This document shows, in pieces, positions 28,562 through 37,237 of a DNA stretch of 38,343 nucleotides. A model generated the notes under the pieces. The model searched no databases. It was not told the origin of the DNA and saw nothing but the letters and a program-made list of their open reading frames with translations. The stretch lies in NCBI GenBank assembly GCA_030832235.1, contig JAURJO010000110.1:1-38343 (forward strand). Reading direction: 5' to 3'. A program made the translations under genes and the position numbers. The stretch's first letter is position 1; each line of letters begins with the position of its first letter. The stretch comes from Verrucomicrobiota bacterium. Lineage in GTDB: Bacteria > Verrucomicrobiota > Verrucomicrobiia > Opitutales > Opitutaceae.

Positions 28562-28615
28562 CGTCGCCGTGGTTTTTGGGTGGAGCCGTGCGCGGCCCCC
28601 CGCACAGTGCCGGGC

Positions 28616-30037
28616 ATGCCGAAGTCGCCGCTCGCCGGTCTGAATGTCCTGCTGCTGGAGGACGACACGCTGCTGCGGCGGCGCCTCACCGGTTTCCTCG
28701 AGGCGGAGAAAGCGGAGGTCACCGCCGTCAACACGGTCGCGGCCGCGCGCCGCGCGCTCGAGGACCTGCCTTTCGAGGCGGCGTTGATCGATGTGAACCT
28801 GCCTGACGGCCGCGGCACGGACCTCCTGCGGGACAAGGCTTTCCCTCCGACAACCACGGTGATCGTGATGACCGCCGAGGGTGGGGTGGCGGGCGCGATC
28901 GAGGCGGTGCGGGCCGGGGCGGCCGACTATCTCGTGAAGCCCTTCGACCCGGAGGACTTCGCCGTGCGGTTCGCCCAGGCGCGCCGGCAACGGCAGGATC
29001 GTCGGGCCGACGAGCACCGCCGGGGGCAGGAGAGTGAACTCGTTTTCGGTCCCAGCCTCGCGGGGGTGAGGGAGCAGCTGACGCGGATCACGACCGCGGA
29101 CCGACGCCTGGGCGAAAACCTGCCGCCCGTGCTGATCGAGGGGGAGACGGGGACGGGCAAGACCGCGTTCGCGCGTTGGATCCATCGCAACGGCCCGCGC
29201 GCGGACCAACCCTTGGTCGAGTTGAATTGTTCCGCGCTGCCGGAGTCGCTCGCTGAAGCGGAGTTGTTCGGTCACGAGCGCGGCGCATTCACCGACGCCA
29301 AGGCCGGCCGGATCGGCCTGATGGAGGCGGCCGACGGCGGCACGCTGTTCCTCGACGAACTGCCCAGCCTTGCGCTTGGTTTGCAGGCCAAGCTGCTGAC
29401 CGCGATCGAGGATCGGAAATTGCGCCGCGTCGGAGCCTCGCGCCCGTTGCCTGTCGACGTCCGGATCATCGCCGCGACGAACGCCGATCTCACGGCGCTG
29501 GCCGCCGCCGGGAGTTTTCGCGCCGACCTGATGCATCGGCTCGACTTATTTCGCGTGCGGCTGCCTCCGTTGCGGGAACGCGGCGAGGACATCATCACCC
29601 TGGCCGAGGAGTTGCTCGCGCGCGTTTGCCGTCGCTACGGGCAAAAGCAGCCGGCGATCCCCGCCGCCGGGCGCCGGCGGCTGATGGCCCACCGCTGGCC
29701 GGGAAATGTCCGCGAACTCGCCCACGAAATCGAGCGGGCCGTCGTGCTGGGCGGCGAGGATGCCCTCGCCTTTGCGCACCTCGCGGCTGCGCCGGTCGCG
29801 GGAAGCGTCGCTCGGGATGGCGGTATTTTGCGCCAAGACTTCGTTTTTCCGGAATCGGGTTTCTCTCTGGAAGCCGCGATCGACGAGATGGTCATGCGTG
29901 CCCTGCGGCAGGCGAATGAGAATGTTTCCGCGGCGGCGCGGCTGCTCGGCGTCTCGCGCGATGTGGTGCGCTATCGCTTGAAAACGGTCAGGCCGGAGAA
30001 CGGTTCTGGGGAAAATTCCCCGACGGATGGGAGTTGA
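28616..30037 (+). CDS. NtrC-family response regulator (REC-AAA+-Fis HTH)
   Basis: REC: VLLLEDDTLLRRRL, ALIDVNLPDGRG, DYLVKPFDPEDF; Walker A GETGTGKTAFARWIH; HERGAFTDAKAG; GGTLFLDELP; C-term HTH ENVSAAARLLGVSRDVVRYRLK. Confidence 0.94.
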   Translation: MPKSPLAGLNVLLLEDDTLLRRRLTGFLEAEKAEVTAVNTVAAARRALEDLPFEAALIDVNLPDGRGTDLLRDKAFPPTTTVIVMTAEGGVAGAIEAVRAGAADYLVKPFDPEDFAVRFAQARRQRQDRRADEHRRGQESELVFGPSLAGVREQLTRITTADRRLGENLPPVLIEGETGTGKTAFARWIHRNGPRADQPLVELNCSALPESLAEAELFGHERGAFTDAKAGRIGLMEAADGGTLFLDELPSLALGLQAKLLTAIEDRKLRRVGASRPLPVDVRIIAATNADLTALAAAGSFRADLMHRLDLFRVRLPPLRERGEDIITLAEELLARVCRRYGQKQPAIPAAGRRRLMAHRWPGNVRELAHEIERAVVLGGEDALAFAHLAAAPVAGSVARDGGILRQDFVFPESGFSLEAAIDEMVMRALRQANENVSAAARLLGVSRDVVRYRLKTVRPENGSGENSPTDGS

Positions 30038-30130
30038 TGGGATTGCCTACCCGAAACCGAGAATATCGTAGATCGGTAAGAAAAACTGTAAGGTAATGAT
30101 GGGTATTGGTTTATGTCGTTTCTTCCTTCT

Positions 30131-30146
30131 TGGCATGCGAGCTGCA
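30131..30146 (+). promoter_or_regulatory. Candidate sigma-54 (-24/-12) promoter
   Basis: TGGCATGCGAGCTGCA versus consensus TGGCACGNNNNTTGCW: invariant GG and GC dinucleotides at correct spacing, two mismatches elsewhere. Confidence 0.45.
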
Positions 30147-30157
30147 AGAGGTGGGGC

Positions 30158-30496
30158 GTGTTCAGGACTTCGCCCAACCTAGTCTGCGTAATCGGGATCG
30201 CCATCGGCGGCGCCTCGTTCGCTTTCGGCGCAGCGGCCCCCGCGGCCGATTCGGCCGCCAAGGCTCCGGCTGAATTGCAGAAGCTGGTCGAACAATCGAA
30301 CCAGCAGCGCGATCGCATGATCGCGGAGCACGATGCTCTCGCGCGTCAGCTGAAGGATGCGAGCGAGGACAAGCGGCGGGAGATTTACGAGAAGATGAGC
30401 GAGCAGAAGAAGGCTTTCGAGGCCGCCCAGAGTGCGCTGCACAAGCGGATCCGCGATGAGCAGCGCGCGCAGCGTTCCCAGCAGCGTCCGCGGTGA
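30158..30496 (+). CDS. Small secreted coiled-coil protein
   Basis: GTG start with upstream aagaggtgg; MFRTSPNLVCVIGIAIGGASFAFGAAAPAADS signal-like N-term, then ELQKLVEQSNQQRDRMIAEHDALARQLKDASEDKRREIYEKMSEQKKAFEAAQSALHKRIRDEQ. Alternative ATG at 30113 (track ORF). Confidence 0.6.
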   Translation: MFRTSPNLVCVIGIAIGGASFAFGAAAPAADSAAKAPAELQKLVEQSNQQRDRMIAEHDALARQLKDASEDKRREIYEKMSEQKKAFEAAQSALHKRIRDEQRAQRSQQRPR

Positions 30497-30525: not shown

Positions 30526-30561
30526 GGGGGCGGTCGCCGGCGCGACCGCCCCCATGTTTTT
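30526..30561 (+). terminator. Rho-independent terminator
   Basis: gggggcggtcgc-cggc-gcgaccgccccc followed by atgttttt; 29 nt after the small ORF stop. Confidence 0.85.
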
Positions 30562-31759
30562 CCGACCTTTCGTATCGCGTGAACATGGCTTGTCCGAGGG
30601 GCGCCTGCCGCGCAGCCTTCGGGATCCAATCGCCTTGAGACTTCCCCTCGGAGCCGCGTTTCCCCTTCTCCTCGCGTCCACCTTGTGCGCGGGAAGGGCG
30701 TCCTCGCCTGCCGTTTCGATTCCGGCCCTGCCCGCGTGGAGCACGTTCGCGTCCGTCGAGTCGGTCTTCGGCTATAAGGACAACCTGCTCCTGAGCTCGG
30801 CTGGCGAGGAGCGGAGCGCGTTGGCGCGGGGAACCGCGGAGATCCTGCTGATGCGCACCCCGACCCAGGCGTTGGAGTACTCCGCTTTCGCGCAAGCCGA
30901 GGGCACCCGGTTCCTTCAGGGCGAGACGGTTCGTAACGAGGCGCGTTTCTGGTTCCGGCAGGAACTCGGTTGGCGTCCGGGACCGCAGTGGGAGCTGCAC
31001 CTCCCGGTCACCGGGTATTTCGATGACAAGGTGTTCGATCAGTCCGACACGGAGGTCGAGCGTCTCACCGCGGTGCTGCGGGTCCTCGGGGCGGTGGCGG
31101 GTCCCACCCTTCGCTGGGATTTTCATCGCATCGCGTGGCTGGAGGTGAGTGCCGCGGCGCAGCGCGACGTGTACGCCGACGGCAGCAACGACGGTTGGAC
31201 GCGCCATGGCGGCTTGCGCCTCAACGTTTCGCTTTCTCGTGGTTGGGAAGCCGGGGCCGGGGTGAACTCGCGCCGGCGGGCATTTGATTCGCGCGAACAA
31301 TACTCTGCCTCCGGGCGCATCCTGCCGGGATCCTCCCTGCGTTCCCGGGAAGAGGAGTATGAAATCAGGATGGCGCGAAAGTGGGGAACGGCGGAATCGT
31401 GGAAGTGCGGGCTCCGATGCGCATTCCTCGATTATCGCGACAACGGCTCAGGCTACTTCGACCGTCGTGAAGGGCAGGCCGAGCCCGAGCTCGAGTGGAG
31501 GCCCGCGGGTTGGCGCCTGCTGCTGCGCGCGGCCGCCCGGCGCGTGGAATTCGGGACCCAGACCGTCGGTATCGGACTCAATCCCGCGCCGCGCATCCGC
31601 GACGAGTACGAAGCCGAGGTTCGGGTGGAGCGGAAATTTTCCGAGAAATGGAGCCTGGTCGGCGGGTTCCGCTGGGAGCGCGCGCGGTCCAACGAGCGCG
31701 TCGCGTCCTACGAGGTGAACGAAGGCTTGCTAGGCGCGCGTTGGAGTTGGGAGAGATAG
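30554..31759 (+). CDS. Outer-membrane beta-barrel protein (start uncertain)
   Basis: Signal-like LRLPLGAAFPLLLASTLCAGRASS, alternating beta-strand pattern to C-term (EKWSLVGGFRWERARSNERVASYEVNEGLLGARWSWER). Track start ATG lies in the preceding terminator tail, so true start is probably downstream. Confidence 0.65.
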   Translation: MFFRPFVSREHGLSEGRLPRSLRDPIALRLPLGAAFPLLLASTLCAGRASSPAVSIPALPAWSTFASVESVFGYKDNLLLSSAGEERSALARGTAEILLMRTPTQALEYSAFAQAEGTRFLQGETVRNEARFWFRQELGWRPGPQWELHLPVTGYFDDKVFDQSDTEVERLTAVLRVLGAVAGPTLRWDFHRIAWLEVSAAAQRDVYADGSNDGWTRHGGLRLNVSLSRGWEAGAGVNSRRRAFDSREQYSASGRILPGSSLRSREEEYEIRMARKWGTAESWKCGLRCAFLDYRDNGSGYFDRREGQAEPELEWRPAGWRLLLRAAARRVEFGTQTVGIGLNPAPRIRDEYEAEVRVERKFSEKWSLVGGFRWERARSNERVASYEVNEGLLGARWSWER

Positions 31760-31775: not shown

Positions 31776-33170
31776 ATGACGTCCTCCCCATACCCGCCGT
31801 CCACGCGCCTCCGGGTGGCGGTCGCGGGTTTGAGCCTCACGGTGCTTGTTTTCGCGGTGGTGGTCGGCGCCGCGACGTGGCGGCTGCGGGTCGGACTGAA
31901 GGAGCAGATCCTCAACCGCGAGGCGGCGACGCTTTCCGCCGTCGCCTCAATGCAGCTCGATCTCGGTGCGGCCGAATATGGAACCGTCGCGGTGGGCGAG
32001 GTGCCCGGCGCCTTGCTGGTGGCGGTCCTGCGGACGGCGCGGCTGCGTGACGTCGCGGCCGTGCGGATCTTCGACGCCCGTGGCGGGTTGAACTCCTCCG
32101 ACGGTATACTCGGCGAGCTGCCCCCGCCGAAACCGGCGGATTGGGGGCGGGTTGCGGCGGGCGAGTCGTTCGCGCGGTTGCTGCCGGGACCACCGCCGGA
32201 GGAAATCCTTCTTCCCGCGTCGGCCGCGAGGGAGGCGGGTCTGCTGGAGGCGTGGGTGTCGCTGCACCGGGGCGGGAGCGACGCGCCGGCGGGCGCGGCG
32301 CAGTTCCTCCTTTCGGCGGCGCCGGTGCGGGCCGAGCTCGCGGCGCACGATGATCGACTGTGGCTGCAGGCCGCGATCGCGTGGGCGGCCGGGTCCTGCG
32401 TGATCGTGATCGGGGTGGCCTGGGCCTTCCGCCGACTCGCGGCCGCGAACCGGGAACTAGCCACGCGCACCGCCGACCTCGAACGCGCCAACCGTGAACT
32501 GGTTCTCTCGGCCAAGACTTCCGCGCTCGGGGCGGTCGCGGCCCACCTGGTGCACGAGCTCAAGAGCCCCTTGGCCGGACTCGAGCAGTACGTCGCGGCG
32601 CAAGGAGCCGCCGGCGCCGAGGATGGGGGAACGGAACTACGGGCGGCCTCGGAACTCACGCGCCGGCTGCGCACCATGGTCAATGAGGCGGTCGGGGTGA
32701 TGCGGGACGAGCAGGCCGGCGCCTCGTTCGAGCTGACCTGCGAGGAATTACTCGAGGTCGTCGCCTCGCGGGTGCGCCCCGAGCTCGCGCGCGCCGGAGT
32801 GAGCTTGGAGCCCGCCGGTGAAGCGGCCGTGCGGGTCGATGGTCGCCGTGCCAACCTTGCGATGCTGGTGCTGAAGAATTTGGTGCAGAACGCGGCCGAG
32901 GCCGCGCCCCGCGGCGGTCGCGTGCGGATGCGCGGCGGCGCTGGCGTCGATGGATCCGTGGAGTTTTTGGTCGAGGACGACGGACCGGGATTGCCGGAGA
33001 CCGTGCGATCGCGGCTCTTCGAGCCCTGCGTTTCCGGCAAGCCCGGCGGCACGGGCATCGGTCTCGCCCTCAGCCACCGGCTGGCCCGGCAAGCGGGAGG
33101 CCGGCTCGAATTGGTGCGCTCCGGTTCCTCGGGGACCTGCTTCCGCCTTGTCTTGGAAAGGGAGCCGTGA
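31776..33170 (+). CDS. Sensor histidine kinase
   Basis: Two TM segments; H-box GAVAAHLVHELKSPLAGLEQYV; N-box LKNLVQNAAEAAPRGG; G-box VEDDGPGLPETVRSRLFEPCVSGKPGGTGIGLALSHRLARQAGG. Confidence 0.94.
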   Translation: MTSSPYPPSTRLRVAVAGLSLTVLVFAVVVGAATWRLRVGLKEQILNREAATLSAVASMQLDLGAAEYGTVAVGEVPGALLVAVLRTARLRDVAAVRIFDARGGLNSSDGILGELPPPKPADWGRVAAGESFARLLPGPPPEEILLPASAAREAGLLEAWVSLHRGGSDAPAGAAQFLLSAAPVRAELAAHDDRLWLQAAIAWAAGSCVIVIGVAWAFRRLAAANRELATRTADLERANRELVLSAKTSALGAVAAHLVHELKSPLAGLEQYVAAQGAAGAEDGGTELRAASELTRRLRTMVNEAVGVMRDEQAGASFELTCEELLEVVASRVRPELARAGVSLEPAGEAAVRVDGRRANLAMLVLKNLVQNAAEAAPRGGRVRMRGGAGVDGSVEFLVEDDGPGLPETVRSRLFEPCVSGKPGGTGIGLALSHRLARQAGGRLELVRSGSSGTCFRLVLEREP

Positions 33171-33239: not shown

Positions 33240-35207
33240 ATGCCCGGCCATCCGGCACTCCTCCGGCTGCTGGCGCTCGCGGCTGGCCTGTTCACCCAGC
33301 GGCTCGCGGCGCAGGAGGGCTCCCTGCAGTGGGCGCTCACCTTGCAGGGCTGGTCGGTATCCTCGCCCGCGGTGAGCCCCGACGGGGCGACGATCTACGT
33401 CGGTGTCGAGACGAGGACCGCGGGCCGTCTGGTCGCGGTGGCGGCGGACGGCTCGGTGCGTTGGAGCATCCTGCGGCCCGACGGCATCAGTGCGTCGCCG
33501 GCGGTGGGCGCCGACGGCACGATTTACGCCGGGTGCTACGACGGGAAGCTCTACGCGATCAATCCAGCCAACGGGGCGATCCGGTGGCAGTACGACGCGG
33601 GCTCCTTCATCGTGAGCTCGCCGGCGATCGCGGCGGATGGCACGGTTTATTTCGGCGCGGGGGACGGGCGGTTGCACGCCGTCGACGCTCGCGGCGCGCT
33701 TCGCTGGACCTTTCAGACCGGGGATTGGGTCGAGTCCTCCCCGGCGCTGGGCCCTGATGGCACGGTTTATTTCGGTTCGCGGGACCGCGCTTTCTACGCG
33801 ATCGCCCCCGATGGGCGGGAGAAATGGCGTTTCGCCTCGGCCGGCGCGGTCACGGGTTCCCCGGCGCTGGGCGCCGACGGTACCATTTACTTTGGATCTG
33901 CCGACCAGCGCATGTACGCATTGTTCCCCGACGGACGGAAGCGCTGGGACCATTTCACCAACGGCGACATCCAGGCGTCTCCCGTGCTCGGCGCCGATGG
34001 CGCGGTTTACTTCGCGGCGCTCGACGCATCCTTCTACGCGCTGGAGCCGGACTCGGGTGCGCTCCGCTGGCGCGTGCCGCTCAACACCAACAGCGTGTCG
34101 ACGGCGGCCGTGCGGTCGGACGGGGCCGTCGTGGTTGGTGGCGACGACGGGATCGTGCGCGCGCTTAATCCGGCGGATGGTTCCGTGCGTTGGCTCTTCG
34201 ACACCCGCAAGGCGGTGCCCGACGACACCATCGATTCCTCACCGCTGCTCGCGCCGGACGGCTCCGTCTACTTTTCATCGCTCGACGGCCGCCTCTACAA
34301 ACTCCGGGGCAACGGCCTCGGGCTTTCCGAGGTTTCGAACTGGCCCGCATTCCGCGGGGACGCCCGCCGCAGCGGTCGTTCCCTGTTCGGGGCGGGCCTG
34401 GGACGTCTGCTCAACCTTTCGGTGCGCGCTCCGGTTGGCGCCCGGGAGACGTTGATCACGGGCTTCGTGGTGCAGGGTGCGGCGGCCAAGGCCTATCTCG
34501 TGCGAGGAGTCGGTCCGGGCTTGGAAGGCTTCGGCGTGGTGGGCTACATGCCGGACCCTAGGCTGGACCTATACGCGGGAGCCACGCGAATCGGAGGCAA
34601 CGACAACTGGGAGGATGCCCCGCCCGGTCTTTCCGTTTCCGACACCGCCGCGGCGGTCGGAGCATTCCCGTTGCTGCCGGGCAGCCGCGACGCCGCGATC
34701 GTTGTCGCGCTTTCCCCCGGCGCGTACTCCGCACACCTGCGAGCGGTGGATGATGCCGGCGGGGTGACGCTGTTCGAAGCCTACGACGCGATCGGCGGGG
34801 ATCCCATCAGCCGGTTTATCAATCTTTCCCTGCGCGGTCGTGCGGGGGAAGGGGACTCCACATTGATTTCCGGCGTCGTGGTGGGTGGAACGGGACTGGT
34901 GAACCTCCTGCTCCGGGCGGTCGGTCCCGGCCTCCGACTTTTCGGGGTCGATGGGGTGCTGGAGCGCCCGCGGATCTCCTTCTACAACGGGGCCACCCTT
35001 GTGAAAACGAACGAGGGCTGGTCCGGTGTCCCCAACGCCGCCGATCTGGCGGGTGCGGCCCGGGCTTCCGGGGCTTTCCCTCTTGGAGCGGGCAGCGCGG
35101 ACGCGGCCCTTACCGTGGTGGTTCCCCCGGGACCCTATACCATCCACGTGGCGGGAGTCGACGGTGTCGCAGGCGAGGTGCTGACCGAGGTCTACGTGCT
35201 GCGGTAA
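33240..35207 (+). CDS. PQQ-like beta-propeller repeat protein with two tandem C-terminal beta domains, secreted
   Basis: Repeats of about 40 aa: SPAVGADGTIYAGCYDGKLYAINPANGAIRWQYDAG / SPAIAADGTVYFGAGDGRLHAVDARGALRWTFQTG / SPALGPDGTVYFGSRDRAFYAIAPDGREKWRF...; then RLLNLSVRAPVGARETLITGFVVQG... and RFINLSLRGRAGEGDSTLISGVVVGG... duplicates. Confidence 0.9.
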   Translation: MPGHPALLRLLALAAGLFTQRLAAQEGSLQWALTLQGWSVSSPAVSPDGATIYVGVETRTAGRLVAVAADGSVRWSILRPDGISASPAVGADGTIYAGCYDGKLYAINPANGAIRWQYDAGSFIVSSPAIAADGTVYFGAGDGRLHAVDARGALRWTFQTGDWVESSPALGPDGTVYFGSRDRAFYAIAPDGREKWRFASAGAVTGSPALGADGTIYFGSADQRMYALFPDGRKRWDHFTNGDIQASPVLGADGAVYFAALDASFYALEPDSGALRWRVPLNTNSVSTAAVRSDGAVVVGGDDGIVRALNPADGSVRWLFDTRKAVPDDTIDSSPLLAPDGSVYFSSLDGRLYKLRGNGLGLSEVSNWPAFRGDARRSGRSLFGAGLGRLLNLSVRAPVGARETLITGFVVQGAAAKAYLVRGVGPGLEGFGVVGYMPDPRLDLYAGATRIGGNDNWEDAPPGLSVSDTAAAVGAFPLLPGSRDAAIVVALSPGAYSAHLRAVDDAGGVTLFEAYDAIGGDPISRFINLSLRGRAGEGDSTLISGVVVGGTGLVNLLLRAVGPGLRLFGVDGVLERPRISFYNGATLVKTNEGWSGVPNAADLAGAARASGAFPLGAGSADAALTVVVPPGPYTIHVAGVDGVAGEVLTEVYVLR

Positions 35208-35326: not shown

Positions 35327-37237
35327 ATGGACGACAACGCCACGAACGAGAACCAGCCCGCCGCCGACTTCAACAAGATCGACCTGAGTCAGCTGCAGGG
35401 CTTCAACTTCGGCACGCAATGGACCCAGGATAAGACGGTCCCGGGCGATCGCCGCTCATCGGAGGATCGTCCGCGCCGCGATGGCGGTGGCTTCGACCGC
35501 CGTGATCGGCGTGGATTTCGCCGTCCGGCCGGAGAAGGCGGTGGTGATGCTGGCCCGGGAGGGCCCGGCGGTCCGGGGCGTCGCGATGAGGGTGGCGAGC
35601 GCCGTTTCCGCGGTGGTGGCCCCGGTGGTTTTCGTGATGGTCCGCGACGCGAAGGTGGACCGCGTGACGGCGGCCAGCGCGAGGGTGGCGGCGAACGCGG
35701 TGGTTTCCGGCGCGGGCCCGGTGGCCCTCAGTTCGGAGGCCGTGGCGCGCCGCAATTCGGTCCGTACGAGAGCCCCTATTTCACGGCGACGTTCTATCCG
35801 GAGGATGCGAGCTTCAACACGCTCGTGCAGACGATCCGGAAGTCATGCCGCACGGTGGAGCTATTCGAGATCGCGCGCACGGTCGTGGCCAAAAACGACC
35901 GGTTCGTGGTGGTGCTCGGGCATCGCGCTCCCGCCGGCGCACCCGCTACGGCGGAGGCCGCGGCGAAACCGGTGTTCCACATCTCGGTGCCGGATGGGCT
36001 GCCGTTCGAAACCGACGAGGCGGCGGTCGCGCACGTGATGGCGAATCATCTCGAGCGTTTCTTCGATCGCGCGGACGTCGAGGTCGAGGCGCCGAAAGGC
36101 AGCTACCAAGTGATCAACCGTTGCGGCGTCACCGGCGAGTTGCTCGGGCCGCCCAATTACCATCGTTACAACCAGATGGTGCAGCAGCACTACACCTCGA
36201 AGCTGAGCGGCCGGATGGGCCCGGAGGCTTTTCGCAGCCGCATCGAGACGGTGCGGGATCCCGAGCTGGTGAACCAGTGGCTGGCCAAGATGAAGAAGGC
36301 CACCCGCTACACGTGGAAGCTTTCCGACGCGGCGGCCGCGCCCGCGGCCCCCGCCTCCGAGACCCCGACCGAGGCTCCCGCGGCGGACGCCCCGGCTCCG
36401 GCTGCTCCGGCGGCCCCGTTCTTCGACACCCTCGAGGACGCTCGCCTGCACCTGCTCACGCACGCGCGTGAAAAGGTGGTGCGCACCGCGGAGAACGCCC
36501 GCTTCACCGGCCGTCTCCTCGAGACCCTGCCGCCGGGCGAGATTCACCGCGCGGTGGAGGGCGCGTTGGAGCGCCAGCGCCGGTTCCCGCTGGACACCGC
36601 CAATGGCCTGCGCGGCCGTTTGCGCCGCGAGCACTTCACGATCTTCAAGAAGGGCTCCAAGGGCGTTTCGTACGTCTGCGCGGTGAAGCGGAAGTTCCGC
36701 GTGCCGGGCCAGACTTTCTCCGACAGCATCGGTGCCCTCATCGCCTACATCGAGGCCAACCCGATGGTGCGCGCGGGCGAGCTGCCGGCCAAGTTCCTCG
36801 GCATCAAGCCCGCCGCGGCCCCGGCGGGGGCGGCTCCTTCCGACGCCGCGGCCTCCGATGCTCCGGCCGTCCCCGCGGTCGCTCCCGAGCAAGCGGTGCC
36901 GAAGGCGGAGGAGTTCAGCATTGATGACCGCGCGCGTCTCGCGCGCCTGCAGGGCGATCTGGTCTGGCTGGTACGCGAGGGTTACGTCACCGAGTTCATC
37001 GATGGCCGTCTCTTCGCCCCGCCGGTCATGGTTGAGGCTCGCAAGAAGGAGATCGAGGCCGAGGAGCACGACCCGGAAAACTTCCCGGAGGCTCCCGCTT
37101 CCGCCGAGGCTCCGGCCGCAGAATCCGCCCCCGCGGAGGCCGCGGCCGTCGCCCAGCCGGTCGCCGATGCCGCTCCCGCTTCACCGGAGGCCGCGCCCGA
37201 GACGCCGGCCGAGGGCAATCCTCCCGCCGGGAACTGA
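35327..37237 (+). CDS. RG/RGG-rich low-complexity protein of unknown function (candidate nucleic-acid binding)
   Basis: MDDNATNENQPAADFNKIDLSQLQGFNFGTQW...RRDGGGFDRRDRRGFRRPAGEGGG...GGERRFRGGGPGGFRDGPRREGGPRDGGQREGGGERGGFRRGPGGPQFGGRG then folded region YFTATFYPEDASFNTLVQTIRKSCRTVELFEIARTVVAKNDRFVVVL; Ala/Pro/Glu-rich linkers and tail. Track ORF starts at 35258. Confidence 0.8.
   Translation: MDDNATNENQPAADFNKIDLSQLQGFNFGTQWTQDKTVPGDRRSSEDRPRRDGGGFDRRDRRGFRRPAGEGGGDAGPGGPGGPGRRDEGGERRFRGGGPGGFRDGPRREGGPRDGGQREGGGERGGFRRGPGGPQFGGRGAPQFGPYESPYFTATFYPEDASFNTLVQTIRKSCRTVELFEIARTVVAKNDRFVVVLGHRAPAGAPATAEAAAKPVFHISVPDGLPFETDEAAVAHVMANHLERFFDRADVEVEAPKGSYQVINRCGVTGELLGPPNYHRYNQMVQQHYTSKLSGRMGPEAFRSRIETVRDPELVNQWLAKMKKATRYTWKLSDAAAAPAAPASETPTEAPAADAPAPAAPAAPFFDTLEDARLHLLTHAREKVVRTAENARFTGRLLETLPPGEIHRAVEGALERQRRFPLDTANGLRGRLRREHFTIFKKGSKGVSYVCAVKRKFRVPGQTFSDSIGALIAYIEANPMVRAGELPAKFLGIKPAAAPAGAAPSDAAASDAPAVPAVAPEQAVPKAEEFSIDDRARLARLQGDLVWLVREGYVTEFIDGRLFAPPVMVEARKKEIEAEEHDPENFPEAPASAEAPAAESAPAEAAAVAQPVADAAPASPEAAPETPAEGNPPAGN

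Follow-up and report, generated by a model that had tools for sequence, protein, structure and literature searches.

A conserved, single-copy protein family of Verrucomicrobiota with an arginine-rich arm and winged-helix domains is predicted to bind nucleic acid

A gene near the end of a 38,343-nucleotide stretch of DNA (the window), taken from a draft assembly some 4.0 Mb in size, encodes a member of a conserved protein family with a disordered, positively charged arm, a defined order of domains and, in relatives, a C2H2 site. Sequence and structure models together predict, with a probability of roughly 0.6, that the product binds nucleic acid and is a lineage-specific, single-copy protein of Verrucomicrobiota. 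RNA would be slightly preferred over DNA as the ligand, at close to even odds. The family appears to be new and unnamed; its constituent modules are recognisable, and binding of nucleic acid is the most likely function that the models suggest. The features of the gene and its product are as follows.

35327..37237, + strand: complete gene, 636 aa plus stop, from ATG 35327 to the stop at 37237; homologues are full length with the same Met
35378..35422, + strand: acidic segment with the short motif DLSQLQGFNFGTQW, residues 18-32; W32 invariant in 58/58 aligned relatives
35423..35770, + strand: disordered arginine-rich arm, residues 33-148 (R 21%, G 33%); pLDDT <50, net positive in 58/58, under purifying selection
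35771..36322, + strand: domain A, residues 149-332, with the signature CxxTGxLLGPPNYHRY and invariant G258, H279 and W318; pLDDT mostly >90
35975..36061, + strand: degenerate C2H2 site in domain A, with S220, D223, H236 and H241 at the C, C, H and H columns of the alignment with relatives
36323..36418, + strand: Ala/Pro-rich linker, residues 333-364; pLDDT about 60, dN/dS 0.29
36419..36694, + strand: domain B, residues 365-456, ending in the predicted basic winged helix 1 (FPLDTANGLRGRLRREHFTIFKKGSKGVSYVCAVKRKF), net +9; from the helix-helix-hairpin order in both models, Foldseek and charge
36695..37036, + strand: predicted winged helix 2, residues 457-570, ending in LQGDLVWLVREGYVTEFIDGRLF, never net positive; from an AspA profile match (E 0.07), the models and charge
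36803-36913, + strand: disordered insert (second linker) splitting winged helix 2, residues 493-529; from the models
37037..37234, + strand: acidic Ala/Pro/Glu tail, residues 571-636, net -11; length varies among relatives

The string quoted in the preliminary description of this DNA, GGERRFRGGGPGGFRDGPRREGGPRDGGQREGGGERGGFRRGPGG, was confirmed within the encoded protein. A candidate start, GTG 35258, lies upstream of ATG 35327 and is less likely to be used, since the homologues open with the same MDDN. When the gene was compared with its closest relative (84% identical), the arm had a dN/dS of 0.07, the folded domains 0.055-0.062 and the linkers 0.25-0.29. These low values in the arm and folded domains relative to the linkers excluded a chance ORF, and that of the arm indicated that the arm is under selection, with its sequence drifting among more distant relatives. 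In the same comparison, dS was 0.20 over the first 36 codons (35327-35434) versus about 0.9 overall; this low value comes from few sites and was absent against two more distant relatives.

The protein had been described as RG/RGG-rich, and with regard to composition this was correct. Residues 37-148 (112 aa) are 57% R+G, where the background is about 10% each for R and G, while the richest 112-aa R+G stretch reached 23-36% in 12 of the 13 other long ORFs of the window and 46% in the remaining one, which is unverified. The RGG motif itself did not survive the comparison with shuffled arms. The window arm contains 2 RGG, 5 RG and 9 RR, compared with 3.0, 8.8 and 5.3 in shuffles of the same arm, and the arms of 58 relatives contain 39 RGG in total versus 34.5 after shuffling. 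RGG was missing from the arms of 32/58 relatives, and arm glycine fell to zero in some. RGG/RG repeats are thus neither enriched over composition nor conserved, in the window arm or across the 58 arms, so that by this sequence criterion the protein falls outside the RGG/RG-box class. All 58 arms are net positive and contain 13% arginine or more; the net charge of the window arm is just +8, and many acidic residues (Asp/Glu) are present. Judged by its sequence, the accurate label is an arginine-rich mixed-charge arm, not an RGG-box-rich one. Eukaryotic RGG/RG-box proteins such as CIRBP (PMC8562343) likewise have an R/G-rich disordered arm beside folded domains, whereas the arm here mixes Arg with Asp/Glu and its RGG is neither enriched nor conserved. 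The proposed disorder was borne out by AlphaFold2, with pLDDT <50 at residues 28-141 and mostly >90 across the folded parts, and the Ala/Pro/Glu linkers and tail were also present, the tail being acidic. Two findings had been named beforehand as counting against the preliminary description; a non-conserved RGG tract was found, and the fold of an unrelated enzyme was not.

We examined the region behind the arm with structure models, which agreed with the earlier proposal that it is folded. AlphaFold2 gave folded regions at residues 149-332, 365-492 and 530-582 of the window protein, and the predicted core of a finger-bearing relative (L200) reached pLDDT 96 and pTM 0.85. When the L200 core was searched with Foldseek, single winged-helix domains matched with a probability of 0.93-0.99; the winged-helix matches included PerR, Zur, Z-alpha (TM 0.74 on target), linker histone H1 (TM 0.66) and cullin WHB (TM 0.71). 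Winged-helix proteins were matched again in a structural search of a viral library. Against the PDB, Foldseek gave zero matches below E 0.001, and no fold was assigned to domain A; the Foldseek check advised in the preliminary description thus gave high-probability winged-helix matches, none of them significant by E-value. The C-terminal domains have the helix-helix-helix-hairpin order of the winged-helix superfamily in high-confidence models, at the same probability of 0.93-0.99. The placement of the winged helices on the domains is partly inferred, because the Foldseek output came without a query range and with E-values >0.001; by secondary-structure order, winged helix 1 would close domain B, with winged helix 2 at residues 457-570. 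The net charge over the relatives was positive for winged helix 1 in 97% and for winged helix 2 in none.

A sequence search against solved structures gave a weak match to AspA (E 0.07, in winged helix 2) and weak C2H2 matches. The C-terminal domains resemble PerR/Zur, MarR and AspA in helix order and wing (Foldseek probability up to 0.99), with E-values that are not significant; the family protein differs in that its two winged helices are oppositely charged and joined to an Arg-rich arm and a domain of unassigned fold, and in missing the metal-sensor or ligand domains of those proteins. One candidate, eIF4E, appeared among the matches to the first model and was rejected, as its probability was 0.01-0.02 and it was missing from the top matches of the better model.

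An intact CX2CX12HX4H was found in domain A of 17/32 non-Opitutales sequences and 0/26 Opitutales sequences. The window protein departs from the C2H2 ligand set CX2CX12HX3-5H, since it has lost the two Cys and kept the two His. Pfam zf-C2H2 matched four members weakly, with a best E of 0.004. The S-D-H-H pattern identical to that of the window protein recurred in 13 sequences, suggesting that the window-type site descends from an intact finger that lost its cysteines; alternatively, the C2H2 site may have been gained in one clade with losses afterwards. At least five changes of this trait were required on a tree without an established root. A bacterial C2H2 finger is shared with Ros/MucR (PMC9779718) by relatives of the window protein only, and the finger here is embedded in a larger domain with its ligands lost in Opitutales; no sequence family match to Ros/MucR was detected. 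The resemblance to nucleic-acid-binding proteins proposed in the preliminary description thus keeps a compatible fold, namely the winged helices and the C2H2 finger of relatives, and loses RGG boxes as its defining feature.

The acidic segment before the arm carries a motif with the family consensus DLSxLxxFxFGxxW, more fully DLSxLxxFxFGPxW(A). Its tryptophan, W32, was invariant across the 58 aligned sequences together with G258, H279, W318 and G552. Across the five genomes searched, no other protein was found to carry it, and this unstructured invariant-Trp peptide looks like a putative docking motif.

We next consider the distribution of the family, which proved wide when its phylogenetic spread was checked. 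It was present in 53/57 relatives, and among 195 genomes sampled evenly across the phylum Verrucomicrobiota a member was carried by 119, nearly always in one copy. Akkermansia-like gut bacteria were among the carriers, and genome G163 carries a family member. The family was absent from the other 76 genomes, including the complete genome G072, so it is not universally essential. G072 consists of one 4.3 Mb contig and belongs to the same family as the window, Opitutaceae, so at least one close relative does without the gene or has replaced it. At locus L198 (G170:C1:1559536-1560514) the family gene is apparently broken, with a two-piece match, the N-terminal motif absent and an in-frame TGA in one piece. 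In a scan of the whole collection, the best 80 of 393 relatives had titles naming Verrucomicrobiota or an unassigned MAG, and the nearest named were Opitutaceae MAGs. Searches for relatives on plasmids or in viruses found none, and a horizontal or phage origin was rejected. Profile searches of Pfam, NCBIfam and PHROGs gave no family that covers the protein, in agreement with the earlier statement that no characterised family was recognised. A tested function of the family was not found in the literature, and the available text of an essential-gene study of Verrucomicrobium spinosum (PMC12283558) names no gene attributable to it.

With regard to gene neighbourhood, tsaE and thiL lie convergently downstream of the family gene across many Opitutales loci, and no generally kept neighbour was found outside Opitutales. 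The conservation of tsaE/thiL stops at this order, so it marks a map position and not a function, and the operon logic was rejected as a functional clue. The gene directly upstream in the window, on the same strand, encodes a PQQ/BamB-like beta-propeller protein that is extended at its C terminus (33240-35207), and genes related to it occupy the corresponding place in 18 related loci. Farther upstream are a sigma-54-dependent response regulator (28580-30034) and a histidine-kinase-like ATPase (31776-33167), with two ORFs between them (30113-30493 and 30554-31756) that had no Pfam match. In nine non-Opitutales loci (L171, L176, L180, L185, L186, L196, L197, L198 and L200) a gene of ~590 aa adjoins the family gene divergently.

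The same 195 genomes were searched for known RNA-binding proteins. Hfq and ProQ were found in 0/195, with the controls detected in the same searches, and the family protein itself had no Pfam match to an Sm-like or FinO/ProQ domain. CsrA was found in 21/195 genomes, with no clear relation to the family, and RRM proteins in 186/195. In Bacteroides an RRM protein, RbpB, acts as a global RNA-binding protein (PMC11697453); given this precedent and the 186 genomes with RRM proteins, the phylum has another global RNA-binding candidate. The idea that the family replaces Hfq is weakened by these RRM proteins and remains a weak claim. The family protein and RRM proteins such as RbpB are both candidate general RNA binders, here in a phylum where Hfq was not found; the family protein has no RRM and coexists with the RRM proteins.

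Binding of nucleic acid is supported by the positive arm in 58/58 relatives, the positive winged helix 1 in 97%, purifying selection, and the winged-helix and zf-C2H2 matches. The predicted disorder of the arm beside a confidently folded core, the invariant Trp, the wide single-copy distribution and the lack of plasmid or viral relatives also speak for it. Against it are the lack of a PDB match below E 0.001, the presence of protein-contact winged helices (MukE, ESCRT-II and cullin WHB) among the matches, the arm net charge of only +8 and the 76/195 genomes without the family. Arg/Gly-rich arms are typical of RNA-binding proteins, which slightly favours RNA; this is offset by the winged helices, which are DNA-binding in more cases and also make protein-protein contacts. 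The DNA branch of this reading can be put as a possible explanation of its own, though we hold it at less than even odds. In it the protein is a DNA-binding architectural or transcription factor whose winged helices both bind duplex DNA, whose arm compacts or bridges DNA as a linker-histone tail does, and whose finger, in relatives, adds contacts: most of the winged-helix structural matches are DNA-binding proteins, linker histone H1 is among the matches, and the bacterial C2H2 fingers of Ros/MucR belong to transcription regulators (PMC9779718), but winged helix 2 is net positive in no relative and there is no fixed regulated neighbour beyond Opitutales.

In a protein-protein scaffold, the winged helices would instead pair with a partner in the manner of MukE/ScpB or ESCRT-II, and the charged arm and acidic tail would serve electrostatic assembly and not nucleic-acid binding. 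The weak fold matches do include MukE, ScpB and ESCRT-II, the chain shows alternating blocks of charge, and the invariant Trp peptide resembles a docking motif. Two consecutive winged helices are common to the family and MukE/ScpB of SMC complexes; the family protein has an extra domain and an arm in addition, and the fold match is weak (for MukE, E 0.076 and a probability of at most 0.54, versus 0.93-0.99 for single winged helices). As no SMC or kleisin gene was identified as a neighbour either, membership in MukE/ScpB did not hold, and we consider the scaffold unlikely. Less probable still is the full preliminary reading of an RGG-box protein that forms RNA condensates. It fits the R+G content and predicted disorder of the arm, and phase separation of Arg-rich disordered proteins with polyanions is reported (PMC9705477), whereas the unenriched and often missing RGG and the arms without glycine speak against it.

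If the protein is a nucleic-acid-binding protein, as we prefer, the basic winged helix 1 would make the structured contact with nucleic acid together with domain A, which would be zinc-stabilised in the relatives that keep the finger. The Arg-rich arm would add long-range electrostatic contacts to the phosphate backbone, dimer or partner contacts may be made by the acidic winged helix 2, and the invariant-Trp N-terminal peptide could dock on a constant partner, e.g. the ribosome, RNA polymerase or a nuclease component. The single copy, the apparently vertical inheritance and the lack of a fixed operon partner beyond one order fit a housekeeping role, either in RNA metabolism or in the nucleoid and transcription. 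A more specific proposal, which we regard as rather unlikely, is an undescribed global RNA-binding or RNA-chaperone protein that acts beside the RRM proteins, with the arm and basic winged helix binding RNA and the Trp peptide docking to the translation or decay machinery.

Taken as a whole, this is a conserved single-copy family across the phylum that has no profile model in the searched libraries. Its finger site, intact in one section of the phylum and degenerate in the other, forms a natural series on the need of zinc for activity. Should it bind RNA, the family would become a candidate hub of post-transcriptional control in a phylum whose searched genomes gave no Hfq or ProQ match.
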